From Desulfovibrio sp. (GTDB lineage Bacteria; Desulfobacterota; Desulfovibrionia; Desulfovibrionales; Desulfovibrionaceae): a DNA stretch of 53,905 nucleotides. The translations under genes and the position numbers were made by a program. The notes below the pieces were generated by a model. It was not told the DNA's origin, did not search any database, and saw nothing but the letters and a program-made list of their open reading frames with translations. Shown piece after piece: positions 3,150-51,853 of this stretch (its first letter is position 1; each line of letters begins with the position of its first letter). The DNA lies in assembly GCA_031269345.1 (NCBI GenBank), contig JAISZH010000168.1, forward strand, positions 1-53,905. The letters are read 5' to 3'.

Positions 3150-3493
3150 GGCAATCCCAACCGGCGCCTACGGGAACCGGGTGCGATAAATACTGCGCCG
3201 CGTCCGGCGGGGCGATACGCTGCAACCCGCTGCCTGCCGCATCCGCAGCCTCGGCGCTGGCGTCACCACGCATAGGCACAACATGGCCTAAAAATTGTTA
3301 TTTTTTTAAAAGTTCCGGTGAGGGAATATCCCCCATGTCCGGATATCCTGGCGATTTTGCCTTTTTGCGTGGTGGATTCTGATATAGGTTGTTGTCGAAA
3401 TCGCCGCGGTTTTATAGCTCAACATAGTAACATGAAGTGCCGCCCGGATTGTCGCCCCACAGGGCCAATCTATCAATATGCAAGGAGGGTAAC
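3150..3493. other. Intergenic region, no gene seen
   Basis: No convincing ORF; the 78-aa track ORF at 3146 has no family resemblance. A possible promoter for the flavoprotein lies near 3388-3417 (TTGTTG, 18 nt, TATAGC), which is weak. The end of the region holds the Shine-Dalgarno AAGGAGGGT just before 3494. Confidence 0.4.
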
Positions 3494-5011
3494 ATGTCAG
3501 ATTCAAAAAAGAAATCCGGAATCAGCCGGCGTGCTGTGTTGAAAGGCGCTGCGGTTACCGGCGCGGCTGCTCTGGTGACGCCGTTGTCCACGACGACGGC
3601 GGAGGCGGTGCCACCGCCGGACAAATGGGATCAGAGCGTTGACGTCGTGGTCGTCGGAACCGGCTACGCCGGTTTGTCCGCCGCCGTTGAGGCCAAAGAC
3701 GCCGGCGCGAACGTGCTCGTTATCGACAAGGCGGACATTGTCGGAGGGAATTCCGTCATCGCGAGCGGCGGATACAACTGCGCCGATCCTGAGAGGCAAA
3801 AACCTCAGGGCATTGAAGATTCCCCGGATTTGCATTTCGCGCAAACCATGGCCGGCGGAGATTTCCGGGCTGATCCGGCCAAAGTGCGCTACTATGTAGA
3901 TCACGCCCTGGACGGTGTGAAATGGCTGGAGAAACTCGGCGTTGTTTTCGAACCGAAGGTGTACACCATCGTCGGCGCGATCCACCCCAGAAGCCATGAC
4001 CCCGTCAATCACGGGCGCGGCGGGGCCATTATCGCTGTATTGAAAAAAAATGTCGAAGAGCGGCAAGTACCCGTGCGCCTGAGTTGCGCCCTGAGCGGCA
4101 TTGTGCGTCGCAATCCACTGGACGGAGAGGTTCTGGGAGTGCAGGTTAAAGAAGGGAGAGGGGTCAAGCACATTGAGGCCAAGCGCGCCGTGGTGCTCGC
4201 CACGGGCGGTTTCGGGGCGGATGTGCCCTTCCGTTCCAAATATGCCCCGCAATACGACGACAAACTCCCGACGACCAATGTGCCCTGGGCCACAGGCGAG
4301 GCGCTGTGCTATTCACAGGATGTGGGCGCCGATGTCGTCGGCATGGACTATATCCAGCTACTGGTAGCCTGCAACTACTTCACAAAAAAATACGGCGACA
4401 TCGCCAACCTCGGCGTTGATCACGCCGTTTTTCTCAACCTGAAGGGCAAACGCTATGTGGCGGAAGACGCCAGACGCGATGTTCTGGCCGGGAGCACCAT
4501 GGCTCAGCCGGAAAAGGTGTTTCTCTGGGTCGCCGATGACCGGGCGGCCAAGCGATACACTTTGGACAGGATCAAGGTGTCTCTGGACAAGGGCTTGTGC
4601 TTTACCGCTCCCACACTGGAGGAGCTGGCCGCGATACTGGAAGGGAAGCTGAAGGTTCCGCCTGCGGATTTTCTGGCCTCCGTCAAGCGCTACAACGAAC
4701 TTGTCGCCTCCGGCAAGGACAGCGATTTCGGGAAAAAGGACGTCAACCTCAAAACTCTTGAGAAAGGGCCGTTCTGGGCAAGTCCGACCCAGGCGGGGGT
4801 GCATCACACTATGGGAGGTTTGCGTACAACGCCCACAACGGCGCAAGTGCTGGACAGGCTCGGCAAAATTATTCCCCGTCTGTATGCCGCCGGCGAAGTC
4901 ACCGGCGGCGTGCACGGCACAAACAGGCTGGGAGGCAACGCCACCAGCGACTGCATTGTCTTTGGACGGTTAGCCGGACAGTTGGCGGGTAAGGAGCCTC
5001 GAAGGGCGTGA
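3494..5011 (+). CDS. Tat-exported FAD-dependent fumarate-reductase-like flavoprotein
   Basis: 505 aa, flavocytochrome c/urocanate reductase flavoprotein family. The start at 3494 follows AAGGAGGGT, which removes the 19 extra residues of the track ORF. The N-terminus has a twin-arginine signal (SRRAVLK, then an Ala-rich segment), implying a periplasmic enzyme. An FAD dinucleotide motif (GTGYAGLSAA) follows at about residue 52. C-terminal signatures HHTMGGLRT and GVHGTNRLGGNA match the family's substrate/FAD site, including the conserved His and Arg; an RRD motif matches the proton-donor Arg region. No CxxCH heme motif is present, so electrons must come from a separate partner not seen here. 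The substrate is unassigned: fumarate, urocanate or another enoate are all possible. Confidence 0.88.
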   Translation: MSDSKKKSGISRRAVLKGAAVTGAAALVTPLSTTTAEAVPPPDKWDQSVDVVVVGTGYAGLSAAVEAKDAGANVLVIDKADIVGGNSVIASGGYNCADPERQKPQGIEDSPDLHFAQTMAGGDFRADPAKVRYYVDHALDGVKWLEKLGVVFEPKVYTIVGAIHPRSHDPVNHGRGGAIIAVLKKNVEERQVPVRLSCALSGIVRRNPLDGEVLGVQVKEGRGVKHIEAKRAVVLATGGFGADVPFRSKYAPQYDDKLPTTNVPWATGEALCYSQDVGADVVGMDYIQLLVACNYFTKKYGDIANLGVDHAVFLNLKGKRYVAEDARRDVLAGSTMAQPEKVFLWVADDRAAKRYTLDRIKVSLDKGLCFTAPTLEELAAILEGKLKVPPADFLASVKRYNELVASGKDSDFGKKDVNLKTLEKGPFWASPTQAGVHHTMGGLRTTPTTAQVLDRLGKIIPRLYAAGEVTGGVHGTNRLGGNATSDCIVFGRLAGQLAGKEPRRA

Positions 5012-5056
5012 CGCGGATGTCCGCCTGAGACGTTTCCCTCGCTTACACATCTGACG

Positions 5057-5100
5057 GGTGCGCCGTTGCTACATTGAGACGGCGCACCTGGCATTTTTAT
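5057..5100. terminator. Terminator between convergent genes
   Basis: Stem GGTGCGCCG (5057-5065) with CGGCGCACC (5080-5088), followed by TGGCATTTTTATTT. It separates the flavoprotein from the convergent aldolase gene. Confidence 0.65.
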
Positions 5101-5114
5101 TTGACAAGGGGTGT

Positions 5115-5891
5115 TCAGAAGTCCGGACGCCTCCCTCCGCTTTGCAGAAAGACGCTGTCCATCCCGTAAGCCAGGAAGGTATATCCGGCCTCAAGCTTCT
5201 CCCGCAAGGCGGCGGCATCCGGCCAGACCACATGGTAGCCTTTGCCGATTTTGTATTCGTCCGCCTTGCGTTCTACAAGCGCCAGCGCCTCCAGAAATGT
5301 CGGCTCGTCAAAACGCGCCGTAATACCCATGGAGGCGGAAAGGTCATAAGGGCCGACCATGCAGGCGTCCAGGCGCGGATGCGAAAAAATTTCGTCCAGG
5401 CGCTTCACGGCGTTGATGTGCTCGATCTGGGCCACCAGGACTATCTCCTGCCCGATACCGGAAGGCCCGAGATGGGCGTCGAAATCCCGCCCGTAGGCAT
5501 TGGCCCGGCAAAAGCCCACTCCGCGCCGTCCCCCGGCGAATTCCCGCCCGCCCGGATATAGGCTTTGGGCAATAGCCCGATCAAGCTGCTCCCGGCTTTC
5601 GATCATGGGAAAAATAAGGCCGGCGGCGCCGGAATCCAGAGCGTACTTGCCCTGGGTCAGCCCCGCTTCGGCCAGACGCGCGAAAGGCGCGGTCCCCCAG
5701 CGTTCAAGGGCGCGGAACACGTCCGGGAGATGCGCGCGCGTAAAGGCGCCATGTTCCATATCTACGGCCGCCCATTCATAGCCCATGCGGGCGATGATTT
5801 CCGCTGTCTCCGGACTTGGCAGTTGCAGCCAGGTGCCGACACAGGCCCGGCCAGCGCGGATCTTCCGCCTGATTTCCGCATTTGACGACAT
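5115..5891 (-). CDS. HpcH/HpaI family aldolase
   Basis: 258 aa, the usual length of class II pyruvate aldolases of the HpcH/HpaI/GarL type, which split or form 2-keto-3-hydroxy acids with a divalent metal. Visible signatures are VDMEHGAF with the catalytic His, QIEH with the metal-binding Glu, and GPYDLSASMG with the metal-binding Asp. The gene is monocistronic with AAGGAGGGGAAC before ATG 5891. Its leader consists largely of an R4 double hairpin, with a clear promoter and a dyad further upstream. Several substrates fit the family (2,4-dihydroxyhept-2-enedioate, keto-deoxy-glucarate and others), so none is assigned. Confidence 0.9.
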   Translation of the reverse strand: MSSNAEIRRKIRAGRACVGTWLQLPSPETAEIIARMGYEWAAVDMEHGAFTRAHLPDVFRALERWGTAPFARLAEAGLTQGKYALDSGAAGLIFPMIESREQLDRAIAQSLYPGGREFAGGRRGVGFCRANAYGRDFDAHLGPSGIGQEIVLVAQIEHINAVKRLDEIFSHPRLDACMVGPYDLSASMGITARFDEPTFLEALALVERKADEYKIGKGYHVVWPDAAALREKLEAGYTFLAYGMDSVFLQSGGRRPDF

Positions 5892-5898
5892 GTTCCCC

Positions 5899-5957
5899 TC
5901 CTTCTTGCCTCCCGAACCGCTTCGCGTTTCGGCGCGGCATCCTGCCGCGCCATATCA
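5899..5957 (-). repeat. R4 double-hairpin element, copy 2
   Basis: Inverted relative to copy 1. Hairpins GCGGC/GCCGC and GAAACGC/GCGGTTC, then GGGAGGCAAG, run straight into the aldolase Shine-Dalgarno. The predicted transcript start falls at its edge, so the mRNA would begin with these hairpins. Confidence 0.7.
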
Positions 5958-5980
5958 ATTCACTGTAAAAATTATGACAA
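5952..5980 (-). promoter_or_regulatory. Sigma70-type promoter for the aldolase gene
   Basis: Read on the minus strand: -35 TTGTCA (5980-5975), 17-nt spacer, -10 TGATAT (5957-5952). Expected start of transcription is near 5945, about 55 nt before the ATG. Confidence 0.6.
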
Positions 5981-6014
5981 TCTTTATCGCGAATTGGCAT
6001 TACGCCGTTTGTTC

Positions 6015-6043
6015 CTGTCCAACATGCGATATATGGTGGACAG
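6015..6043. promoter_or_regulatory. Candidate operator dyad upstream of aldolase promoter
   Basis: Arms CTGTCCAACAT (6015-6025) and ATGGTGGACAG (6033-6043) form an inverted repeat matched at 10 of 11 positions with a 7-nt spacer, the geometry of a dimeric regulator. Its centre is roughly 85 bp upstream of the predicted start, a position more usual for an activator. No regulator gene is adjacent. Confidence 0.5.
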
Positions 6044-6256
6044 AGTCTGAATCCGCCCGTACCTTCCCGCCTTTAGCGCCATACCTGCCTACCGGGAAAC
6101 ACGGCCTATCATTACATATTTTAATGCGAATTGGAATAATACTGTTCCTGATGTTGATTATAATTATTTGTAAAATAAAATAGTTACAGGGAGAAAATAC
6201 GATATTGTCCAAAGGCAGAACAAAAAAATACATTTATGTAATTTGTCGGCATATCC

Positions 6257-6358
6257 TCAAATTTCGTTCCACGAGCGGATGAGGGCTTCGTAGATGTCTT
6301 TGGCCGCGCGCAACTGATCCAGAGGGCAGGATTCATTAGTTTTAAGCGATACATGGCG
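6257..6358 (-). pseudogene. In-frame coding-like tail after the trpS stop
   Basis: Directly after the TAG of trpS, the same frame stays open for over 30 codons to a TGA (6257-6259) and reads ...CPLDQLRAAKDIYEALIRSW..., a plausible helical protein end. TrpS is already full length at its TAG, so this is more likely the remnant of another gene than a readthrough product. Confidence 0.3.
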
Positions 6359-7378
6359 CTAGAATCCTATCAACTCTCTGACCCCTTCCATGGTCTTTGC
6401 GGCTTCTGCCCTGGCTTTCTCGTTTCCGGCCTCCAGTACCTCCCGCACAAAACCCGGCTTCGCATCCAGAAAAGCGCGGCGCTCGCGCATAGGCGCAAGA
6501 AAAGCCTCAATCCCGCGCAAAAGTATTGCCTTGCAGTCCACACAGCCAATGCCGGCGCTAAGACACCCCGCGCGGATCTCCGCCTGGGTCTGCTGATCCG
6601 TAAGCAGTTCATGATAGGGGAAAAGATTGCAGTGTTCCGGGTTGCCGGGGTCTTTGCGCCGCAGTCTGGCCGTATCCGTGAGCATTTCCCTGATTTTGGG
6701 GGCGATCGTGTCCATGCCCTCGGAGAGCAGAATGCCGTTGTTATAGCTTTTGGACATCTTTCGCCCGTCAAGCCCCGGACATTTGGGCTGAGGAGTGAGG
6801 CGGGCCTCTGGTTCGGGAAAGAACTCGCCATAGAAATTGTTGAAACGGCGGGCTATCTCACGGGCAATCTCCAGGTGCGGAAGCTGGTCCTGCCCCACCG
6901 GCACCCACTGCGGGCGGTACATTATGATGTCCGCGGTCATCAGCACCGGGTAGCCCAAAAAGCCGTAAGTGCCGAGATCCTTGTGGCTCAGCTGCTGCAA
7001 CTGTTCTTTATAGGTGGGACAGCGCTCAAGCCAGCTCACCGGGGTAATCATGGACAAAATCAGGTGCAGTTCGGCCGTTTCCTTGATCCGCGACTGCTGA
7101 AAAATGACCGCCCGCTCCGGGTCCAGTCCCGCCGCCAGCCAATCCTTGACCATTTCGGGAATAAATTCCCTTATGCGCGCGGCTTCTTCATATTCGCTGG
7201 TCAACGCATGCCAGTCGGCCACGAAAAAAAAGCTTTTCAACTCATCCTGCATGGCGAGCCAATTTTTTATAGCTCCGAAATAATGACCGATATGCAGCGA
7301 GCCGGTCGGGCGCATCCCGGACAAACTGCGCTTGGCCGCGTCCTTGTTCAGCATGGACGTTGTCTTGCCTGGCGACAC
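6359..7378 (-). CDS. trpS: Tryptophanyl-tRNA synthetase
   Basis: Class I aminoacyl-tRNA synthetase charging tRNA-Trp. HIGH motif SLHIGHYFG is near the N-terminus and KMSKS motif DGRKMSKS about residue 190. I place the start at GTG 7378 (339 aa): AAGGAGG lies 5 nt before it, and inside the first codons of the longer track ORF starting at 7393. The gene is last in a minus-strand operon after the M50 protease (11-nt gap). The C-terminal ELIGF end is normal for the family; an in-frame coding-like stretch follows the TAG stop. Confidence 0.96.
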   Translation of the reverse strand: MSPGKTTSMLNKDAAKRSLSGMRPTGSLHIGHYFGAIKNWLAMQDELKSFFFVADWHALTSEYEEAARIREFIPEMVKDWLAAGLDPERAVIFQQSRIKETAELHLILSMITPVSWLERCPTYKEQLQQLSHKDLGTYGFLGYPVLMTADIIMYRPQWVPVGQDQLPHLEIAREIARRFNNFYGEFFPEPEARLTPQPKCPGLDGRKMSKSYNNGILLSEGMDTIAPKIREMLTDTARLRRKDPGNPEHCNLFPYHELLTDQQTQAEIRAGCLSAGIGCVDCKAILLRGIEAFLAPMRERRAFLDAKPGFVREVLEAGNEKARAEAAKTMEGVRELIGF

Positions 7379-38350: not shown

Positions 38351-38393
38351 GAACGGGCGCAGGTCGGAGAAGATCAAACGGTTGGGGGAGGAA

Positions 38394-39515
38394 ATGTCCA
38401 AGTACGGAAAAACGCTTGTTTTAAAGCTCGGAACGAGCGTCCTCACCTTGGGCGGGAGCAAGCTCAACAAGGCGCATATGGTCGAGGTCGTCCGCCTCTG
38501 CGCCGGGGCCGTTGCCGCAGGGCGCAGAATTATCATTGTTTCTTCCGGGGCCATTGCCGCCGGGCGCGAACACCTCAATTTCCCTTCTCTTCCCCCGGTC
38601 TTGTCCTCCAAGCAGCTTCTTGCCGCGGTCGGGCAAAGCCGCCTTATCCAGACCTGGGAGCAGCTTTTTGCCATCTACAACCTGAACATCGGGCAGATGC
38701 TGCTGACACGCGCCGATCTTGAAGACCGCGAACGTTTCCTTAATGCCCGCGACATGTTGAACGCCCTGCTTGACAACGGCATTATACCGGTTGTCAATGA
38801 AAACGATGCCGTGGCGGTGTCCGAGATCAGAGTGGGGGACAACGACAATCTCTCGGCCCTGGTCGCGGTTCTCGCCCAGGCGGACCTGCTGGTGTTGCTC
38901 ACGGATATGGACGGGCTGCATACCGCCGACCCCCGCCTTGAACCGGAGGCCACGCTGATCCGGCGTATTGAGAATATTGATGATTCCCTGCTCCAGATGG
39001 CCGGAGGTCCGGTGTCCGGCTTGGGCATAGGCGGCATGGCCACCAAGATTCAGGCGGCGGAGATAGCGACGCGCGCAGGGATAGGCGTCGTCATAGCCCG
39101 GGGGACGGAAAATTCAATGCTGGCCGATATTTTGCAAGGCAAGGAAAGGGGCACTTTTTTCATGCCCCGGCGCACGCCGCTGGAGCAGCGCAAGATATGG
39201 ATCTTCGGCGCCCCCCCCGCCGGCGCCCTGAGCATTGACGCCGGAGCTGTAAACGCCTTGGTCAAAGGCAAAAGTTCCCTGCTTCCCGCCGGCATAACCG
39301 CCGTCGAAGGGACCTTCGCCAGAGGCGACGTGGTGCGCATCCTGGATCCGGACGGACGGGATTTGGCGCATGGAGTGCCGCGCTATAACAGCGACGCCCT
39401 GTCCATGATCCGGGGCCGGCGCTCGGATGAGATCGGGGCGGTGCTCGGTTATGAATATGGTCCGGTGGCCGTCCATCGCGACGACTTGATTATGCTGGAG
39501 CATTGCAATTTTTGA
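38394..39515 (+). CDS. proB: Glutamate 5-kinase
   Basis: 373 aa from ATG 38394 after GGGGGAGGA. Phosphorylates glutamate, first step to proline. It has the amino-acid kinase domain ([42 protein letters not shown]) and a C-terminal PUA domain. proA follows after 31 nt. Confidence 0.96.
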
Positions 39516-39546
39516 CCGGCCGAACGACCGGGATCGGAGGTGGAGC

Positions 39547-40830
39547 GTGGACGCGGAAAAAGACGGGAAAGGCGGCATTGATCTTGAATTCATGGGCAGG
39601 CAGGCGCGCGCCGCGGCCCTGGTTCTGGCCGGATTGGACAGCCCGCGCAAAAACGCGCTGTTGATGTCTTTGGCCCAAGCTTTGGATGAGGCCCTTCCGG
39701 ACATTCTCGCGGCCAATGCCGAAGATGTCGAAACCGCCCGTTCCCAAGGGATGAGCGAGGGTCTTCTGGACCGTATGCTGTTGGATGAAAAACGCCTGCG
39801 CGGCATAGCCGCGGATGTCCGCTGCACGGCCGCCCTGCCGGACCCGGTGGGGACGGTTATGGACGGGCGCAGGCTGGATTCCGGACTTTTCCTCACGCGC
39901 CGCCGCGTGCCGCTGGGGGTGGTTGCGGCTGTCTATGAGGCCAGGCCGAATGTGACCATAGACATCGCCTCCCTGTGCCTGAAAACCGGCAATGCGGTCA
40001 TTCTGCGCGGCGGCAAGGAAATTTTGCATTCCAACGCCGCCCTGGTCGGGGTCGTCCGCGCCTGCCTGGAAAAAGCCGGGCTTCCGGCGGCCTGCGCGCA
40101 GCACGTCAATTCTCCGGACCGGGCGCTGCTGATGGAGCTTATGCATATGGACGCATACGTGGACATGCTGATCCCGCGAGGAGGCGAGGGCCTGCACCGC
40201 CTGTGCAGGGATGAATCCAGCATCCCGGTCATTACCGGGGGCATTGGGGTCTGCCATATATATGTGGACGCCAGAGTGGATGCGGACAGGGCCCTGCCGG
40301 TCATTGAAAACGCCAAGATGCAGCGCCCGAGCGCATGCAACTCCGTTGAGACCCTGCTCGTCCACAAGGATATTGCCTCTTCCTTTCTGCCGCGTCTGGC
40401 CGCGCGTCTGATCCCTCTGGGCGCGACCCTGCACCTTGATCCCGGGGCCGAGGTCGCGCTGGGCGGCGCTTATCCTTCCGTTCCGGTGCGCGAGGGCGAC
40501 TATGGCAAGGAATGGTTGAGCTATGACCTGAATGTGCGGGTGGTATCCGGGCTGGACGAGGCGCTGGAGCATATCCGCATCCACGGCACAGCCCATTCGG
40601 AGGCCGTACTCACGGAGGATCTGGCTGTGGCCGAGCGTTTTGTCAACGAGGTCGACGCCTCGGCCGTCTATGTGAACGCCTCGACCCGCTTCACGGACGG
40701 AGGACAGTTCGGTTTGGGCGCGGAAGTGGCCATAAGCACGCAGAGGCTGCATGCGCGTGGCCCTATGGGGCCGGAGGCTTTGACCACCTGGAAGTGGATA
40801 GCCCACGGGAATTACAGCGTCAGGGAATAA
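39547..40830 (+). CDS. proA: Glutamate-5-semialdehyde dehydrogenase (gamma-glutamyl phosphate reductase)
   Basis: 427 aa with GTG start and GGAGGTGGA upstream. Aldehyde-dehydrogenase fold; second step to proline. [20 protein letters not shown] is the cofactor region and [10 protein letters not shown]... (here [12 protein letters not shown]) holds the catalytic Cys. The acetyltransferase-TraB gene starts 8 nt after its stop, so it may share the transcript. Confidence 0.96.
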
Positions 40831-40837
40831 TTCTCCA

Positions 40838-42745
40838 ATGTGCGCAGCCGCGCGAACACTGCCGGGGCAAAAGGCGTTGGACCTCAGTGGGGTCAAGCGG
40901 TCCTTGCCTGAGGCCCTTGCATCGGCTGTCGTGCCCGAGCATTCCGTGGCCTTTATGCGCGCCATGTCGGGCGGCGTTGCTTTTTATGAAGGGGAGTTTA
41001 TCTTTCTTCACGCCGAGGATTGGTTGATGGGCATCGGCTATCCTTTGCGCGAGGCCGCCCTCTTCGAGCTTGCCGATGCGAACAGCCCGGCGGCGCTGGA
41101 CAACGCCCTTTCTTTTGAAGCCGCCCTGAAAGCGGTCCTCGGACGCACAAAGGCGAGATCGTGCTGGGCCATTGCCCCGCTCCTGCCGGAACGGCTTGAG
41201 CCTTTTACAGAGTGCCGCGACCAGTATTACCTTCTCAACAGGGATTCTTCAGTGCCGAAAAACTTGCGGAGGCCGCTGGAAAGCGTCGCCCGCCGTCTTT
41301 CGATCACCGAAGATCGTCTGTTCACCCCCGCCCATCGAAGACTCTGGGCCGAATTTCTGGGGCGCGCGCCGATGCGGCCCAACGTGCGGGAGCTCTACGC
41401 CCGCACGGAAGCCGTGCTGGCGGTGAGCCGGGCCTCCATGGCGAAAGAAGGCGCTGCGCGAAACGAAACCTTTTTGGATTTGCGTTTGCTGAACGCCTGG
41501 CATGAGGACGGCTCGCTGGCCGCCTCGCTTCTCCTTGATTACAGCCCCCCGGCCTTTTGCGCTTATATGATTGGCGCGCATTCCAAAGAGCGCTACTCCC
41601 CGCACGCCACGGATCTGCTTTTTGCTGAAATGCTTGTGAGGGCGCGCAGGGAGAACAAACGATTCATTCATCTGGGTCTTGGCGTTAACGAGGGCATCAC
41701 GCGTTTCAAGCGGAAATGGGGCGGACGGGCGGCCCTGCCATACGTTATGGCGTCCTGGACCGAAGACGGCGGCGCCGGATACGGTCAAAGGCGCGGCAGC
41801 GATGCAATCGGAGCGGCGGCGCGGGCCATACTGGCCATGCCCGCCGATATGAGCAAACAGCAGATTTTCGACGGGTTCGCGCAGCAGCGCACTTTTGCCA
41901 TGATTTTTGAGGTTGCCGGGCAGGGCGCTGTTTCCTATCTTTGCGGTTCCGCGCACTTTTTCCGCTATTCTTTCGAGTTTTCCTTCCGCGAATTGTTCGA
42001 GCCGCTGCATACGGTGGTTTTTGAAGGGCCTCTGGACGAGGCTTTTCTCGCGGCGGTGGAGTCCAGCGGGCGCAGCCCCGAACCGGGCTCGCCCAGAATC
42101 GTTGACCTTCTGACGGAGCGGGACATCGCGCGTCTTGAACGCGCCGTATACGGTCCTGAAGGGAGTTTGCTCCGCCTGCTGGGCCTGTCCGCTCCACGGC
42201 GGATCGATCTGCGGGATCTTCTGTCCAATGCCCGGCCCTGGTTCGCCTTTTTTTCTATCTGGGTTGCCTATCTTGAGCGGCTCGGCTGGCGGGAGTCTGT
42301 GGATCTCGAAGCCTGGCGCACGGCCAAAGACATGGGCAAGGCGGTTATCGCCATGGAAAACATTGACGAACAGCTCGATTCGCTGCAGTCGGTGCCCATA
42401 GAACGCATTGCGGATTTTTTCCGCCGTTGCCGCTTGTGGCCCGCCTGCGTCAAGCGCAACGTAAGCAGCTACCTGAACGGCGACTTAGGCGGCATGATGG
42501 GTAGCAGCATCGAATTTCCGTCACGAACGGAAATGGTCATCGACCGGAGGGATGAGCGTTTTCGCAGGCGCATGCGTCCTTTTCTTGAGGCGGGCGGCTG
42601 CGCGGTGTTCGTGGGCACGGCTCACCTGGTAGGGCTTATTCCCATGCTTGAGGCCGACGGCTTTGCCGTGCGTCAGGTGTACCCAAGCCTCAGACTCAAG
42701 CTCCGGGCGGCCGCGAAACGTCTGTGCGCCGGCAAAAAAACGTGA
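40838..42745 (+). CDS. Acetyltransferase (GNAT/BioF2-like) fused to TraB/GumN domain
   Basis: 635 aa, two-part protein. Residues about 20-310 form a GNAT-like half, ending in FIHLGLGVNEGITRFKRKWG, a BioF2/FemAB-like signature. Residues about 355-620 match TraB/GumN (Tiki-like) proteins: CGSAHFF at the front, VVFEGP, an Arg-rich VIDRRDERFRRRM, and FVGTAHLVGLIPMLEADGF at the end, giving both GxxH motifs. TraB/GumN proteins are putative metalloproteases, usually exported; this one has no signal peptide. The N-terminal half is paralogous to the next gene. No function can be assigned; I know of no characterised protein with this pairing. Confidence 0.8.
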   Translation: MCAAARTLPGQKALDLSGVKRSLPEALASAVVPEHSVAFMRAMSGGVAFYEGEFIFLHAEDWLMGIGYPLREAALFELADANSPAALDNALSFEAALKAVLGRTKARSCWAIAPLLPERLEPFTECRDQYYLLNRDSSVPKNLRRPLESVARRLSITEDRLFTPAHRRLWAEFLGRAPMRPNVRELYARTEAVLAVSRASMAKEGAARNETFLDLRLLNAWHEDGSLAASLLLDYSPPAFCAYMIGAHSKERYSPHATDLLFAEMLVRARRENKRFIHLGLGVNEGITRFKRKWGGRAALPYVMASWTEDGGAGYGQRRGSDAIGAAARAILAMPADMSKQQIFDGFAQQRTFAMIFEVAGQGAVSYLCGSAHFFRYSFEFSFRELFEPLHTVVFEGPLDEAFLAAVESSGRSPEPGSPRIVDLLTERDIARLERAVYGPEGSLLRLLGLSAPRRIDLRDLLSNARPWFAFFSIWVAYLERLGWRESVDLEAWRTAKDMGKAVIAMENIDEQLDSLQSVPIERIADFFRRCRLWPACVKRNVSSYLNGDLGGMMGSSIEFPSRTEMVIDRRDERFRRRMRPFLEAGGCAVFVGTAHLVGLIPMLEADGFAVRQVYPSLRLKLRAAAKRLCAGKKT

Positions 42746-42746
42746 T

Positions 42747-43751
42747 TCAGGGTTTTTTCCCCCATAAGCCTGACACACGGCTCAAAAAGCCTGGTGCAAG
42801 CGTCTTTTTGCCGCCAGCCGGCAGTTGCCACGAGGTTTCAACATAGGGGAGAAAGGGCTGGGCCTTCCATTTTTTTTTGAAAAAACCGATGCCGCTGTTG
42901 ATGCCGAGGCCGAGGTTCATGCGGCTGTGCCCCATGGTTTCCGCATGGCTCAGCAGGCGGGCGAGAAGGAGGTCGGCGCTGCCCGGCGGCGCAGTTTTCC
43001 GGCGAAAGGCGAACATGTAAAAAGCCGTGTGCAAACCGCTGAAGTCGCCTATGCTGAAAGCCGTGAGCCGCCCGTCGTTCAGGCGGGCCGAGACGAGAAG
43101 CACGTTCCGCGCCTCCCCGGGCGCATCGTCGGGTTCTTGTAGGGCGTAGCGATTGATGGAGGAAAACACCGCCCTTGTACCGGGCGGCAGAGGGCGCGTA
43201 TCGAGGTATTCCCGCACGATATCCGCGTGCTCGTCGCTCCAGGCTTCAATTTCAACGGTGAGATCGCGTCCGGCCCTGGTGAGCATGTTGCGGAGCTTCT
43301 GCCCGACGGGCGGCGCTGGTATCGGCAGCCGCCAATACAGGTCGGCGCGGCTTTCGGCGTCGCTTGGAGCTTCTTTCGGGCGGTAGGGCGCCAGCACAGT
43401 GACCGAGGAACAGCTTTTTGCCAGTTCCTCAAGAGCTTCGTGCAGAGACGGGGGTTCGGGAAAAGGCGATCCGGGCGCCGGACGGGGCTGCGCCTCGCCA
43501 GCCTCTTTGCCCGGGCCGCCGGACCAGTCAGGATCTCCTCTGCCCTTAGCGTCGCAACTTGATGGCGAATACCGGGGTTCCGCCCGGGGAGCGCCGGAGT
43601 AGGCCGCCAGAACGGCGTGCCCTTCGTGAATATACGCGGCGTACTCGCGGCAGAGCAGAGCGCGCCTGCCGGAAACCGCGCGCACATAGTGCACGAGTTG
43701 TTCGGGCACGACGGCCTCGGCCGTGATATGGGAAAGTGACGCGCCAAACAT
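42747..43751 (-). CDS. Acetyltransferase-like protein, paralogue of the fusion's N-half
   Basis: 334 aa from ATG 43751, after GGAAG. The 764-aa track ORF extends far past this and shadows the radical SAM gene; I reject it. AVVPEQLVHYVRAVSGRRAL aligns with AVVPEHSVAFMRAMSGGVAF of the fusion protein, and MNLGLGINSGIGFFKKKW with its HLGLGVNEGITRFKRKW. No TraB part. It converges on the fusion gene with one base between the stops and diverges from the radical SAM gene with 33 nt between starts. Confidence 0.75.
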   Translation of the reverse strand: MFGASLSHITAEAVVPEQLVHYVRAVSGRRALLCREYAAYIHEGHAVLAAYSGAPRAEPRYSPSSCDAKGRGDPDWSGGPGKEAGEAQPRPAPGSPFPEPPSLHEALEELAKSCSSVTVLAPYRPKEAPSDAESRADLYWRLPIPAPPVGQKLRNMLTRAGRDLTVEIEAWSDEHADIVREYLDTRPLPPGTRAVFSSINRYALQEPDDAPGEARNVLLVSARLNDGRLTAFSIGDFSGLHTAFYMFAFRRKTAPPGSADLLLARLLSHAETMGHSRMNLGLGINSGIGFFKKKWKAQPFLPYVETSWQLPAGGKKTLAPGFLSRVSGLWGKKP

Positions 43752-43784
43752 GCGGAGCTTCCGGCCTTTCCTGTGGAGGCAGTG

Positions 43785-44864
43785 ATGAAAACGCCAAGCG
43801 GACGAACCGACCCTTTTGACGACCCTTCCCTGCGCGGTCCTGGGGTCTGGCGTTCGCTGCGTGAAGCCTTCGGCGGCCTGCGCCGTCTGCTGGCCGTGGC
43901 CCAGGTGGAGGTGACGTCGTTTTGTCCCGGCGGCTGTGTCTATTGTCCGCATACCACCATGAAGGGCAGATGGAAAGCGCGACACATGCGCCCCGAAACC
44001 TTTGTCCGTCTGTGGCCGCTTTTTCTCGAAACCGAGCGGGTGCATTTGCAGGGCTGGGGCGAACCATTGCTGCACCCGCGTTTTCTTGACATGGTTTCCC
44101 TGGCCCGAAGGGCCGACTGCCGCGTTTCCACCACCACCTGCGGCCTTGTAATGCACGAACCGCTGGCCGAAGGCATTGTGCAAAGCGGCATCGACATCAT
44201 GGCTTTTTCCCTCACCGGCACATCCGAGGCCGCCAACAAGGCCGCCAGAACCGGCGTCGACTTCGGACGGCTTCTTGATGCCGTCCGGCTTTTGCGGCGG
44301 GTGCGCGAGAAAAGAATGGCCGTCCATCTTGAAATTCATTTCGCCTATCTGGTGCTGGCAAGCCAGATGGACGAAGTTCTGGCTTTGCCCGACCTGATGC
44401 AGGAGCTTGGCGTGCACGCGGCCGTTGTCAGCACTTTGGACTATATTCCCACAGCGGCATGGAAGGACGAGGCGTTCGCCCCGCATGAAAAGGGCAAGAC
44501 CGCCAGGGCCGGGGCGCTGCTGGAAGAAGCCTCGGCCAGGGCTGCCGGCATGGGCCTTGCCCTTTACTATTCCCTGCCGGGGGACAGCCCCGGCAGCACC
44601 TGCCTCGAACATCCGGAAAAAAGCGTCTACGTTGATGCGGAGGGCAATCTGTCCCCCTGTATCTACGTCAACCTCCCCACAGAGGATGAAGACCCAATGC
44701 GCCGCGTGTTCGGCTCGGCGCTTGCGATGAACCCCCTTGACATATGGCGCGGGGATGATTTTTCCGCCTTTCGCGAGGCCATGGTTTTTCGCAGGCCGGA
44801 CGCCCCCTGCGTTGAATGTCCCAAACGCTTCGCCTCGGGCAACAGGCTGACCTTGTCGCCATAA
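43785..44864 (+). CDS. Radical SAM/SPASM-type protein
   Basis: 359 aa from ATG 43785, with GGAGG 5 nt upstream (the GTG start of the track is 12 nt further up). Radical SAM motif SFCPGGCVYCPH near residue 47, followed by LQGWGEPLLHPRF. The C-terminal region carries four cysteines (STCLEH, SPCIY, PCVECPKR) fitting a SPASM-like auxiliary cluster site. SPASM proteins often modify peptides or activate sulfatases. It is divergent from the acetyltransferase gene and likely functionally tied to it. An R1-R3 composite follows. Confidence 0.88.
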   Translation: MKTPSGRTDPFDDPSLRGPGVWRSLREAFGGLRRLLAVAQVEVTSFCPGGCVYCPHTTMKGRWKARHMRPETFVRLWPLFLETERVHLQGWGEPLLHPRFLDMVSLARRADCRVSTTTCGLVMHEPLAEGIVQSGIDIMAFSLTGTSEAANKAARTGVDFGRLLDAVRLLRRVREKRMAVHLEIHFAYLVLASQMDEVLALPDLMQELGVHAAVVSTLDYIPTAAWKDEAFAPHEKGKTARAGALLEEASARAAGMGLALYYSLPGDSPGSTCLEHPEKSVYVDAEGNLSPCIYVNLPTEDEDPMRRVFGSALAMNPLDIWRGDDFSAFREAMVFRRPDAPCVECPKRFASGNRLTLSP

Positions 44865-48109: not shown

Positions 48110-48185
48110 GCCGGGGTAGCTCAGTTGGTAGAGCAGCGGACTGAAAATCCGCGTGTGGGCAGTTCAATTCTGTCCCCCGGCACCA
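48110..48185 (+). tRNA. tRNA-Phe (GAA), CCA encoded
   Basis: 76 nt cloverleaf. Acceptor stem GCCGGGG / CCCCGGC, D-arm with TAGCTCAGTTGGTAGAGCA, anticodon stem GCGGA/TCCGC with loop CTGAAAA (anticodon GAA, 48143-48145), and T-arm with GTTCAATTC. 3' CCA is encoded at 48183-48185. It marks the left edge of an accessory island. Confidence 0.97.
48168..48178 (+). other. Candidate attL core (3' end of tRNA-Phe)
   Basis: TTCTGTCCCCC in the tRNA T-arm/acceptor region is repeated exactly at 52023-52033. Integrative elements duplicate tRNA 3' ends on insertion. Eleven bases is short and C-rich, so this is tentative. Confidence 0.4.
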
Positions 48186-48200
48186 CATAAAAATCTCACG

Positions 48201-48240
48201 AAGTCCCGCAAGAGGCAAAAAACCTTGCGGGACTTTGATT
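48201..48240 (+). terminator. Hairpin after tRNA-Phe
   Basis: Stem AAGTCCCGCAAG (48201-48212) / CTTGCGGGACTT (48224-48235), followed by TGATTTTC. Probably the tRNA terminator. Confidence 0.7.
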
Positions 48241-48298
48241 TTCTGGAGATTGGTTGTCTCATGCCGTTTCATAAAGTGCCTTGACATACCGCTATAAA

Positions 48299-48318
48299 GG
48301 GGGCAACTACGGGGGCAA
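48299..48318 (+). repeat. GGGGGCAA-type repeat, left copy
   Basis: GGGGGCAACTACGGGGGCAA, itself two GGGGGCAA boxes, matches 51944-51963 at 18 of 20 positions. An inverted, weaker version lies at 48348-48365 before the integrase relic. Possible recombinase arm-type sites. Confidence 0.5.
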
Positions 48319-48357
48319 GCTCAGCAAGTGGTTTTATTGCTGAAAGAAGTTGCCCCT

Positions 48358-48426
48358 ATGCCCCTTACAGATACGGCTTGGAATTCAGTCTTTAATAGAT
48401 CAGTATTGATTCGCTATTATTATTGA
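48358..48426 (+). pseudogene. Relic of a P4-type tyrosine integrase start
   Basis: ATG 48358 opens MPLTDTAWN and stops after 22 codons. MPLTDTA is the standard beginning of P4-family tyrosine integrases, and such genes usually sit directly downstream of a tRNA, as here. The rest of the gene is missing. Confidence 0.5.
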
Positions 48427-48720
48427 CCTGCCTTTTCTGCGACGCTGGTAGCCGAGAACTGGTAGAACATTCAAAAATGCACAAGGATGGCTTAGTGCGA
48501 GGTGAATACTGGACGGAACCATCGCCTAAGAGGGGATTCAAGCGGAACATTTGCATCATACGGAAAGACGAGTGAGAACGTATGGCGGGGCGGCGGTTAC
48601 CAGAGGAATCCGGTGCTGCCTGCCTTGCAACGAAAAGCCAGTAACCTGCCGATATAGCCCCAATCTGTGTCTTGAAAAAGAATATTCGGGCAACTCATAA
48701 AATATGGATGGGGGCCGATT
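48427..48720. other. Gap with a short open frame
   Basis: A 32-codon frame at 48477-48575 reads MHKDGLVRGEYWTEPSP... and looks coding-like, open upstream to about 48430. It may be another gene remnant. No promoter is evident; GGGGGCCGATT precedes the next start. Confidence 0.3.
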
Positions 48721-50682
48721 ATGAAAATTTCCACTATTCTTGACTATGTTGATAATGGTCATATGGCCTTACCGGAATTCCAACGGGGCTTTGTCTGGAC
48801 TCGAGACAAGGTGCGCTGGTTATTCGATTCTCTGTACCACAAATATCCTGTGGGCAGTTTGCTGGTATGGGGTACGGAATCTCAAACCGCAATCCACCGG
48901 GGGGATGGGCAGATCACTCCCGGCGTGGTAAAACTGCTTCTTGATGGTCAACAACGATTGACTTCTCTTTATGGCGTTGTGCGCGGCAAGCCTCCCAAGT
49001 TTTTTGATGGGGATGCCCAAGCTTTCACGGGCCTCCATTTCCATCTTGCTTCCGAAACTTTTGAATTTTATCAGCCTGTTAAAATGAAAGGCGATTCCCT
49101 GTGGATCAACGTGAGCGAGTTGTTCCAGAAAGGACATACAGGGCATGGGGAAGTCATCCAGCGTTTGCTTGGCAACCCGGAATATGCCGCCCATGTGGGC
49201 GAGTATTCCCAGCGCCTGGGGAATTTGCTGGGTATCATTGAAACGGATTTGCATGATGACACTATAACTGGCGCGGATAAAAGCCTTGACGTGGTAGTGG
49301 ATATTTTCAACCGGGTCAATAGTGGCGGCACAAAACTATCTAAAGGCGATCTCGCTTTGGCTAAAATCTGCGCCGCATGGCCGGGTGGTCGTCAAGCCAT
49401 GAAAGTCAAGCTTAAGGAGTGGGAACATGCAGGGTACAACTTTACGCTGGACTGGTTGCTGCGTTCCATGAATACCGTCCTGACGGGTGAGGCGCAATTC
49501 TTGTACCTGCATGGGCGCGATGTGGATGAGGTACAGAATGCACTGGAGAAAGCCGAAAGATACATTGACACTTGCCTCAATTTGATTGGCGGAAGATTGG
49601 GCCTAGACCATGACCGCGTACTTTTTGGCCGTTTCGGCATTCCTGTCATGGCCCGCTATCTTGACCTCCGTAATCAACAGCATCTTGGCCCGATGGACGA
49701 CAAGGAACGGGACAAGCTCCTGTTCTGGTTCGTTCAGGCGGGTATGTGGGGCCGTTTTTCCGGTTCAACAGAAGGCAATATCGACAAGGACTTAGGCGCA
49801 TTGGAAGGAGAGAACGGAGGTTTGGACAACTTGTTGGAGACTCTGCGCCTGTGGCATGGAGGCTTGCGGGCCGAACCTGGGCATTTCAGCGGCTGGAGCC
49901 TTGGCGCACGTTTTTACCCTGTCCTCTATATGCTCACACGTATGGGAAATGCCCTTGATTTAGGCACTGGCCTACCGCTAAAAGCCAATCTTTTGGGCAA
50001 AATGAATAAGCTGGAAGTGCATCACATTTTTCCCAAGGCTCAGCTCTATAAGCGCAAATACGATAAATCGGCTGTAAACGCCTTGGCTAACTTCTGTTTT
50101 TTAATCAAAGACAGTAATCTGAGTATCAGAGACAGGCTGCCGGAAGAGTATTTCCCAGAAGTGGAACAAGCACACCCCGGCGTGCTAGCTTCACAATGGA
50201 TTCCTATGGATACAGATCTTTGGAAAATAGAGAATTTTTCAGTTTTTTTGAATGCACGTAAAGAGTTATTGGCAGAAGAGCTTAATCGGCACATGGAAGA
50301 TTTATTGCATGGAGATACTCACTGGTTGAGCAGTTCTGCCGCTATACCTGATGAACCGATCTTTGCAGACAAGATTAATGATGAAGAGCTGGACAGTTAT
50401 GTATATGATTTAAATGCTTGGATGACAATGCAAAATCTACCAGCAGGTATCATTTCTTATGATTTGGCTGATCGTGAAACGGGAAAACAAAAAGCAGTGA
50501 TTGATTTAGCTTGGCCTAACGGAATTTTGGAAAACCTAAGCCCACCTGTAGCCGTGCTTTTCAATGAAGAGCCTGGAATTATTTCCCTGGCAAACGAGTA
50601 TGGTTTGCGTTGCTTTACCAGCGTTACAGCTTTCCAGAAATATGTTGAATCCGAGATTAAGACAGATATTGGTGAAAAATAA
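48721..50682 (+). CDS. DUF262 and HNH protein (GmrSD/type IV restriction-like)
   Basis: 653 aa. The N-terminal DUF262 domain has LPEFQRGFVW and LLDGQQRLTSLYG (the ParB/Srx-like NTP-binding motif, about residue 73). The C-terminal HNH-type nuclease motif is VHHIFPKAQLYKRK (about 432), followed by NALANFCFLIKDSNLSI. This is the single-chain GmrS-GmrD-like layout, which restricts modified phage DNA in characterised members. A long C-terminal tail of about 170 aa is AT-rich and unlike the chromosomal genes around, a sign of transfer. Confidence 0.88.
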   Translation: MKISTILDYVDNGHMALPEFQRGFVWTRDKVRWLFDSLYHKYPVGSLLVWGTESQTAIHRGDGQITPGVVKLLLDGQQRLTSLYGVVRGKPPKFFDGDAQAFTGLHFHLASETFEFYQPVKMKGDSLWINVSELFQKGHTGHGEVIQRLLGNPEYAAHVGEYSQRLGNLLGIIETDLHDDTITGADKSLDVVVDIFNRVNSGGTKLSKGDLALAKICAAWPGGRQAMKVKLKEWEHAGYNFTLDWLLRSMNTVLTGEAQFLYLHGRDVDEVQNALEKAERYIDTCLNLIGGRLGLDHDRVLFGRFGIPVMARYLDLRNQQHLGPMDDKERDKLLFWFVQAGMWGRFSGSTEGNIDKDLGALEGENGGLDNLLETLRLWHGGLRAEPGHFSGWSLGARFYPVLYMLTRMGNALDLGTGLPLKANLLGKMNKLEVHHIFPKAQLYKRKYDKSAVNALANFCFLIKDSNLSIRDRLPEEYFPEVEQAHPGVLASQWIPMDTDLWKIENFSVFLNARKELLAEELNRHMEDLLHGDTHWLSSSAAIPDEPIFADKINDEELDSYVYDLNAWMTMQNLPAGIISYDLADRETGKQKAVIDLAWPNGILENLSPPVAVLFNEEPGIISLANEYGLRCFTSVTAFQKYVESEIKTDIGEK

Positions 50683-50757
50683 ATGCAAAAAAATTGGGAG
50701 TGCTTGTGGAAAGCCAAAATACCGCGCAGAAAAGAAGCTTAGCGCGATGAGTATCTG

Positions 50758-50826
50758 ATGAGAGGTATCTGTGCCTTTGCTAATGCCCAGGGCAGCACCT
50801 TTCTGAAATCTCAAGAGACAGCGTAA
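50758..50826 (+). pseudogene. Short relic resembling an AlbA_2 domain
   Basis: A 22-codon frame with ICAFANAQGSTFL, which resembles the start of AlbA_2 (divergent AAA-4) domains, usually written as xAFANxxGG. Only this part remains. It lies between the DUF262 and RhuM genes. Confidence 0.3.
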
Positions 50827-50842
50827 TGGAGAAGATGACGAC

Positions 50843-51853
50843 ATGAAACCCGACAGTTCTGAACTTGTCATCTACCAAACTGAAGACGGCAGAACAAAAA
50901 TTGACGTGCGGATGGAGGAGGAAACCGTCTGGCTAACCCAAGCCCAGATGGTTGATTTGTTCCAGACGACCAAGCAGAATGTCAGCCTGCATATCAATAA
51001 TGCTCTCAAGGATGGCGAGCTTGAGGAGAGTTTAGTTGTCAAGGAATACTTGACAACTGCCGCTGACGGCAAAAGCTACAACACAAAGCACTATAATCTG
51101 GATGTCATCATTTCTGTCGGCTACCGGGTGAAATCCCTGCGCGGCACGCAGTTCCGCCGCTGGGCGCTGGCGGTTCTTCGGGAGTATCTCGTCAAGGGCT
51201 TCGCCATGAACGACGACCTCCTGAAAAAAGCGGGCGGCGGCGATTACTGGCGGGAACTTCTGGAGCGCATCCGCGACATTCGCTCCAGTGAAAAGGTGTT
51301 CTACCGGCAAGTGCTTGACCTGTACGCCACCAGCGTTGACTATGACCCGCACACGCCGGAATCGCAAAAATTCTTCAAAGTGGTGCAGAATAAAATCCAC
51401 TACGCCGCCCACGGCCATACCGCGCCGGAAATCATCGCCGGGCGGGTCAATGCCGAACTGCCCTTCATGGGTCTGACCACCTTCGCCGGGGCAAGGCCGG
51501 TCAAAAGCGATGTGGGCATCGCCAAAAACTATCTGCGCGAGGAAGAACTGGCGACTCTGAACCGCATGGTTTCGGCCTTTTTCGATCTGGCTGAACTGCG
51601 CGCCATGCAACATCAGCCCATGTATATGAAAGACTGGCTGGCGGAACTGGACGACTTTGCCGGGCGCTACGGCAAGGGCATACTCCCGGATGCCGGGCGG
51701 GTCAGCCATGCAGAAGCGCTGGATAAGGCGGAGCAGGAATACGAGAAATACCGCCATCTGACGGACGCGGAACTTTCGCCGGTGGAGCGCGAATTTCTGG
51801 ACAGCCTCAAGCGGACGCAGAAAAAACTGGCGAGGAAGACAAAAAAGGACTAG
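50843..51853 (+). CDS. RhuM-family protein
   Basis: 336 aa, matches the virulence protein RhuM/COG3943 type. VWLTQAQMVDLFQTTKQNVSLHI is the N-terminal DNA-binding-like part. NLDVIISVGYRVKSLRGTQFRRWA is the strongest family signature. The rest is helical (DYDPHTPESQKFFKVVQNKIHYAAHGHTA). The biochemical role of RhuM is unknown; it is common in mobile and restriction islands. GGAGAAGATGACGAC precedes the ATG. Confidence 0.9.
   Translation: MKPDSSELVIYQTEDGRTKIDVRMEEETVWLTQAQMVDLFQTTKQNVSLHINNALKDGELEESLVVKEYLTTAADGKSYNTKHYNLDVIISVGYRVKSLRGTQFRRWALAVLREYLVKGFAMNDDLLKKAGGGDYWRELLERIRDIRSSEKVFYRQVLDLYATSVDYDPHTPESQKFFKVVQNKIHYAAHGHTAPEIIAGRVNAELPFMGLTTFAGARPVKSDVGIAKNYLREEELATLNRMVSAFFDLAELRAMQHQPMYMKDWLAELDDFAGRYGKGILPDAGRVSHAEALDKAEQEYEKYRHLTDAELSPVEREFLDSLKRTQKKLARKTKKD

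Follow-up and report, generated by a model that had tools for sequence, protein, structure and literature searches.

FemX-like enzymes with a double-GNAT architecture are tRNA-dependent aminoacyl transferases with a catalytic lysine, K305 in FemX and K329, beside F328, in DhpH-C (PMC12945691). Peptidases and esterases that share a 2His/2Glu site are both found in the TIKI/Ere superfamily (PMC6254334). Domains resembling both groups are joined in a single gene in a 53,905-nucleotide stretch of Desulfovibrio sp. DNA, which was analysed as a whole and is called the window here. The gene encodes a tandem-GNAT half (A) followed by a TraB/PrgY/GumN half (T), and it is accompanied by genes encoding a second GNAT protein (B) and a radical SAM/SPASM protein (R) (Table 1). 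No characterised protein that pairs GNAT with TraB was found, in line with the original prediction for this gene.

As in FemABX, LPG synthase (DUF2156, PF09924), DhpH-C, PacB, Orf11 and Sbb17, the A domain has a tandem-GNAT fold in its predicted structure (Foldseek E ~1e-8). A conserved Phe-Lys pair close to the C-terminus of its second GNAT may correspond to that of DhpH-C and, as in DhpH, the transferase is one domain of a larger protein. Unlike the members of the FemABX/LPG-synthase group, to which it is only 12-17% identical, A is fused to a TraB domain and its window copy falls below the Pfam cut-offs; moreover, two paralogues are combined with a radical SAM protein and no recurrent cell-wall, lipid or antibiotic genes were found nearby. 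T shares a full-length PF01963 domain, two GxxH motifs and an invariant Glu with TraB/PrgY/GumN and TIKI/Ere proteins but, unlike TraB/PrgY/GumN proteins, it appears by inspection to be cytosolic, has no signal peptide and is found behind a tandem GNAT or in an overlapping adjacent gene. Like TIGR04311 and TIGR04317 (W-rSAM), R combines a radical SAM core, including CX3CX2C, with a SPASM domain, but it scores far below their cut-offs, has only four invariant auxiliary cysteines and has GNAT, TraB and YeiH proteins as partners.

Table 1 Features of the A-T fusion gene and its partner genes, in window positions
Feature	Position	Strand	Remarks
A-T fusion gene	40838..42745	+	635 aa; tandem-GNAT half and TraB/PrgY/GumN half
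A domain	40904..41767	+	residues ~23-310; tandem GNAT, FemX/LPG-synthase-like by AF2 and Foldseek; profile-profile match to B
F290-K291 of motif LGLGVNEGIxRFKxKWGG	41705..41710	+	possible counterpart of the FemX catalytic Lys
T domain	41903..42676	+	residues 356-613; TraB/PrgY/GumN (PF01963)
First GxxH, G370-S-A-H373	41945..41956	+	G370 and H373 invariant
E396	42023..42025	+	invariant; probable active-site Glu, role inferred from the TIKI/Ere superfamily
Second GxxH, G593-T-A-H596	42614..42625	+	G593 and H596 invariant
B, paralogue of the A domain	42747..43751	-	334 aa; convergent with the fusion gene; B profile 321 bits
R, radical SAM/SPASM protein	43773..44864	+	363 aa; PF04055 and PF13186 over cut-off

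Domains and conserved residues of the A-T protein

The frame of the fusion gene was open without interruption from its first ATG, which was taken as the start, to the end given in Table 1; the original prediction had been right about position and length of the ORF, both GxxH motifs and the lack of a signal peptide. The true start is uncertain, since aligned relatives begin ~20 residues further on and confidence in the model is low for residues 1-19. The protein begins with the GNAT domain, and the T genes that stand apart from A in relatives likewise start without an obvious signal peptide; by inspection of the sequences, the A-T protein is probably intracellular, as had been proposed.

The TraB/GumN half is complete. 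PF01963 matched with 103.3 bits (E 2.6e-29; gathering cut-off 26.8 bits) over profile positions 2-263 of 263 and was found in all 34 homologous fusions. G370, H373, G593, H596, E396 and R571 were invariant across the 34 aligned fusions. A model of T only (AF2; pLDDT 91.5, pTM 0.88) gave no PDB match at E<=1e-3 in a fold search.

The first half was recognised by Pfam with less certainty. Acetyltransf_6 (PF13480), named in the original prediction together with PF01963, matched residues 158-292 of the window copy weakly, with 14.1 bits (cut-off 22), and reached E<=0.01 in 19 of 34 homologous fusions (best 9e-7); PF09924 did not match the window fusion. Since A of the window stays below the Pfam cut-offs, it is termed FemX-like here and is not filed as a member of a family. 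The AF2 model of the whole fusion (mean pLDDT 85; residues 320-335 form a loose linker) has two successive GNAT-like halves in the A region, which agrees with the GNAT-type half proposed before. A Foldseek search of the PDB returned FemX (1xe4; E 7.4e-9, probability 1.00) as top match, along with L-PGS (4v36; E 2e-8, probability 1.00), MprF, DUF2156, A-PGS, the aminoacyl-tRNA-dependent peptide synthases Sbb17/Sba18 (16-17% identity) and tandem acetyl-CoA GNATs including 2wpw; FemX and LPGS ranked above the CoA-dependent tandem GNATs. PDB sequence searches with the single fusion protein and with A, B and T profiles gave nothing significant, and no NCBIfam family covers the fusion or B. The Phe-Lys pair is invariant in A and in B (F291-K292) and lies inside the near-invariant motif given in Table 1; by analogy, K291 of A may correspond to the catalytic lysine of FemX. 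The predicted structure thus makes the fold of an aminoacyl-tRNA-dependent transferase likelier for A than that of an acetyltransferase. Of the acyl or aminoacyl transfer suggested originally, the aminoacyl variant gained ground, whereas "acetyltransferase" is a poor label because the fold matches FemX, LPG synthase and aminoacyl-tRNA-dependent peptide synthases.

The four-enzyme module and its association with dsr genes

A and B are full-length paralogues (profile-profile hhalign, E 1.2e-72). R matched PF04055 with 62.1 bits (cut-off 29.5) and PF13186 with 31.7 bits (cut-off 21.5); the cysteines of CX3CX2C (C51, C55, C58) are invariant, as are C277, C296, C346 and C349. It is the only part of the module with a significant sequence match in the PDB, and its profile found BtrN and PqqE first among solved structures.

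All four parts are present in the window, with B inverted. In most relatives B directly follows A-T and is itself followed by R. Distant Desulfobacterota keep this order but have one separate gene each for A, T, B and R, commonly with 4-base overlaps, as seen in L132, L134, L136, L140, L141 and others; in L134 they lie at 3288-4139, 4136-4984, 4985-5827 and 5824-6924, respectively. B and R are joined in a single ORF at several loci (L072, L089-L092, L099, L109 and L130), and triple A-T-B (GNAT-TraB-GNAT) fusions of ~880-1120 aa were found at eleven loci of Mailhella and relatives (L047, L055, L056, L057, L058, L061, L066, L080, L084, L087 and L093). Parts of a broken-up module tend to remain in the same genome: G370 keeps A-T on contig C28 and B-R on C11, and G435 keeps A-T-B on C110 and R on C42. 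Among 395 genomes of the phylum, a high-scoring R was present in 21 of the 30 A/T-positive genomes vs 4 of 365 others (Fisher p 4e-24, relatedness ignored); some genomes have R or its relatives without A, T and B. A, T, B and R therefore form a conserved module whose parts are repeatedly co-encoded or fused, and the A-T fusion, originally presented as an isolated curiosity, is one of several fusions within a four-gene set that includes a second GNAT and a radical SAM/SPASM protein.

Other genes in the window were inspected as well. proB and proA (38382-40830) lie directly upstream of the fusion gene with a 7-bp gap; they were rejected as functional partners, not being seen upstream of the module in relatives. 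At 48110-51853, ~4 kb away from the module, a tRNA-Phe gene precedes genes of the GmrSD restriction type and the RhuM family; the segment is likely an integrated island.

Both the sulfur cycle and the formation of hydrogen sulfide in the gut are driven by dissimilatory sulfite reduction, whose known genes are commonly regarded as an almost complete set. In several families a transporter gene of the YeiH family (PF03601, TIGR00698) is a recurrent neighbour that adjoins R or the module (L042, L048, L053, L062, L083/L143, L140, L141, L144-L146, L161-L163); YeiH was not found within the window. These neighbours are longer versions of the family, with 437-611 aa; one of them, scored against TIGR00698, reached 84.5 bits vs a cut-off of 232.6. 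YeiH is the main sulfite-resistance factor of Salmonella (PMC12880088). Therefore, we tested for dsrA and, indeed, it was found above the curated cut-off in 30 of 33 genomes carrying the module or R. In the phylum of the window, 26 of 28 carriers had dsrA vs 145 of 327 non-carriers (p 4e-7, phylogeny ignored). In the phylum of the MAGs labelled Clostridia, where A-T occurs in 4 of 300 genomes, dsrA was present in all four vs 37 of 296 non-carriers (p 3e-4, phylogeny likewise ignored).

The association with dsr genes is also physical. In four genomes of two families (f8, f54) the module or its B-R part lies <= 8 kb from dsrA. The order is B-R, YeiH, IscU, IscS, DsrA, DsrB, DsrN, DsrC, DsrM, DsrK in G370 (L181), B-R, YeiH, IscU, IscS, DsrA in G320 (L163), A-T-B-R, YeiH, regulators and DsrA-DsrB-DsrN-DsrC-DsrM-DsrK in G277 (L182), and A-T-B-R, YeiH and DsrA at the contig end in G505 (L183). 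DsrA, DsrB and DsrC were identified by scores over curated cut-offs; DsrK reached 375 vs 400, DsrN was named by a cobB-type match and position, and DsrM, IscU and IscS by position and best match. No dsr gene was found beside the module in the fused clade, the window included. The module resembles dsr accessory genes (dsrN, dsrC, dsrMK) in lying near dsrAB, dsrN, dsrC, dsrM and dsrK in two families but, unlike these, it is present in only part of the dsr-positive genomes. Since most dsr-positive genomes have no module and 12 genomes of the window's own genus gave no match, it is not required for sulfite reduction, and its patchy presence even inside dsr-positive groups marks it as accessory.

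The setting of dissimilatory sulfite reduction was absent from the original prediction. We found no description of this four-enzyme set in the open-access literature searched, and none that joins TraB/GumN, GNAT and radical SAM, or dsrAB, TraB and GNAT; papers that mention TraB together with radical SAM and SPASM deal with other topics, and the main texts of PMC10504309, PMC10591310 and PMC11406059 do not mention a TraB, acetyltransferase and radical SAM module among dsr genes. A conserved, repeatedly fused set of four enzymes tied to dissimilatory sulfite reduction points to an unknown modification or metabolite, and the question is directly testable because the fusions show which proteins must work together. 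Gut-relevant carriers are Desulfovibrio piger and MAGs of Bilophila and Mailhella.

Several smaller observations concern neighbouring genes. Distant R relatives (305-313 bits) without A, T and B adjoin YeiH-family genes at L154:3848-5659 and L155:7924-9660, so the link of R to YeiH is wider than the module. A conserved single-TM protein of ~100 aa is encoded between the YeiH-family gene and the module at L042:7520-7852, L048:7040-7330 and L053:1289-1582, and a ~199-aa protein without Pfam match recurs at L048:7404-7982 and L143:2438-3037. In family f25 (L126:4285-7403, L137, L138), two radical SAM genes, by inspection of the AhbC/AhbD type, and hemB lie divergently beside A; hemB was confirmed by PF00490 in L126.

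Proposed function and rival explanations

In our judgement the chances are about even that A-T is a component of a four-enzyme module (A, T, B, R) of dissimilatory sulfite- or sulfate-reducing bacteria that serves a dsr-associated modification or biosynthesis. From folds, conserved residues and gene neighbours we infer that A and B transfer aminoacyl groups, that T is a hydrolase, that R introduces a radical modification and that the target or product serves sulfite reduction. A and B would transfer an amino acid, most likely from aminoacyl-tRNA, to an amine or hydroxyl acceptor on a small molecule, peptide or protein, and R would carry out radical SAM chemistry on the acceptor or on the added residue. 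T would act as a cytosolic hydrolase of the TIKI type; by cleaving a peptide or ester bond in the product, it would either release the product or reset the modification. The A-T fusion could then channel both steps, whether opposing or successive, since a single chain would suit transfer to one substrate combined with either removal or trimming, and the product or target would serve dissimilatory sulfite reduction as a Dsr-pathway protein, a cofactor or in sulfite handling. More specifically, and only tentatively, A, T, B and R may be a new system dedicated to maturation or cofactor synthesis in which tRNA-dependent aminoacyl transfer and radical SAM chemistry modify a protein or cofactor of the Dsr pathway, with the TIKI-type hydrolase processing or resetting it. 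Any particular substrate would be named with much less confidence than the overall model. A module-linked tRNA was rejected, no such tRNA gene being found. Around the module, no conserved small precursor ORF was found beyond a ferredoxin-like one in one family and the single-TM proteins beside YeiH, and a RiPP precursor nearby was likewise rejected. Since neither a cassette-linked tRNA nor a precursor peptide was found, it is the fold similarity by itself that points to tRNA dependence.

The original prediction had coupled protein acylation or aminoacylation to proteolysis of the same target; with R adding a further residue change, this would amount to the maturation of one protein, a reading to which we give a modest chance. 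In its favour, A and T share a single chain throughout a clade, peptides are frequent substrates of radical SAM/SPASM proteins, and Dsr proteins would be at hand as targets where the module lies in dsr clusters. However, it has to contend with the lack of a conserved small precursor ORF around the module and with a TraB family in which activity is known for few members.

The presence of L-PGS, A-PGS and MprF among the top fold matches leads to a different acceptor, a membrane lipid, which soluble LPG-synthase-like A and B would load and R would modify, while T would hydrolyse the aminoacyl ester; the link to dsr would then reflect adaptation of the membrane to sulfide or sulfite. Most B proteins do match LPG_synthase_C weakly (16 of 20 members at E<=0.01), and ester cleavage is known from the Ere branch of the superfamily to which T belongs (PMC6254334). 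However, a membrane domain of the MprF type is missing, all four proteins look soluble by inspection, and B of the window scored 25.1 bits with PF09924, below the cut-off of 27.5, whereas PF13480 was above its cut-off (26.4 vs 22 bits). We consider this explanation unlikely.

It is rather improbable that the module is a metalloenzyme maturation system that works via R, most like the W-rSAM and Geo-metal maturases, with an acyl-CoA-dependent tandem GNAT and an inactive or structural TraB domain. The best NCBIfam matches of R, TIGR04311 (115.8 bits) and TIGR04317 (99.8 bits), fit such a role but are far below the cut-offs of 400 and 380, and the acetyl-CoA tandem GNAT 2wpw is among the Foldseek matches but ranks, like the other CoA-dependent tandem GNATs, below FemX and LPGS; the invariant catalytic residues of T argue against an inactive TraB domain. 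An anti-phage or toxin-antitoxin system is hardly credible: GNATs occur as toxins, R weakly matches prokaryotic viperin in PADLOC (35 bits) and the window has a GmrSD-type gene 4 kb downstream, but PADLOC had no match for the fusion or B, which led us to reject a known anti-phage system, the viperin match is of a kind common to radical SAM cores (MoaA and PqqE score alike), and the synteny of relatives is with dsr, YeiH and isc genes.

Distribution and history of the fusion

The A-T fusion occurs in dozens of genomes of several families and two phyla. In a survey of the same family, 40 of 199 genomes matched, and ~33 of these, from 14 of 44 genera, have an intact or almost intact fusion; 12 genomes listed from the window's own genus had no match. 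A scan of named genomes with an alignment as query found at least 80 relatives, most covering almost the whole length, while the single protein as query found nothing in named genome contigs. The relatives listed belong to Desulfovibrionaceae (Desulfovibrio piger, Bilophila, Mailhella), Desulfobulbaceae, Syntrophobacteraceae and Desulfobacterales, and include two MAGs labelled Clostridia. The fusion was present at 39 of 57 sampled loci from several families, which excludes an assembly error or frameshift joining two genes, an outcome that would have undone the original prediction.

A tree of the concatenated A and T domains from the 57 loci placed all fused loci on one side of a strongly supported branch and the separate genes on the other; L098, a secondarily interrupted copy, falls inside the fused side. 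Two changes suffice on this tree, so the fusion or fission happened essentially once and was kept since; the tree is unrooted and does not give the direction of change. Two further loci carry remnants of the module. A 658-aa ORF at L142:5453-7429 contains A, a truncated T (~105 aa) and most of R, without B, and appears to derive from the module by an in-frame deletion. An 89-aa ORF adjoining R at L144:3640-3909 is a relic of the C-terminal end of A or B, which suggests that A-T-B was lost and R retained.
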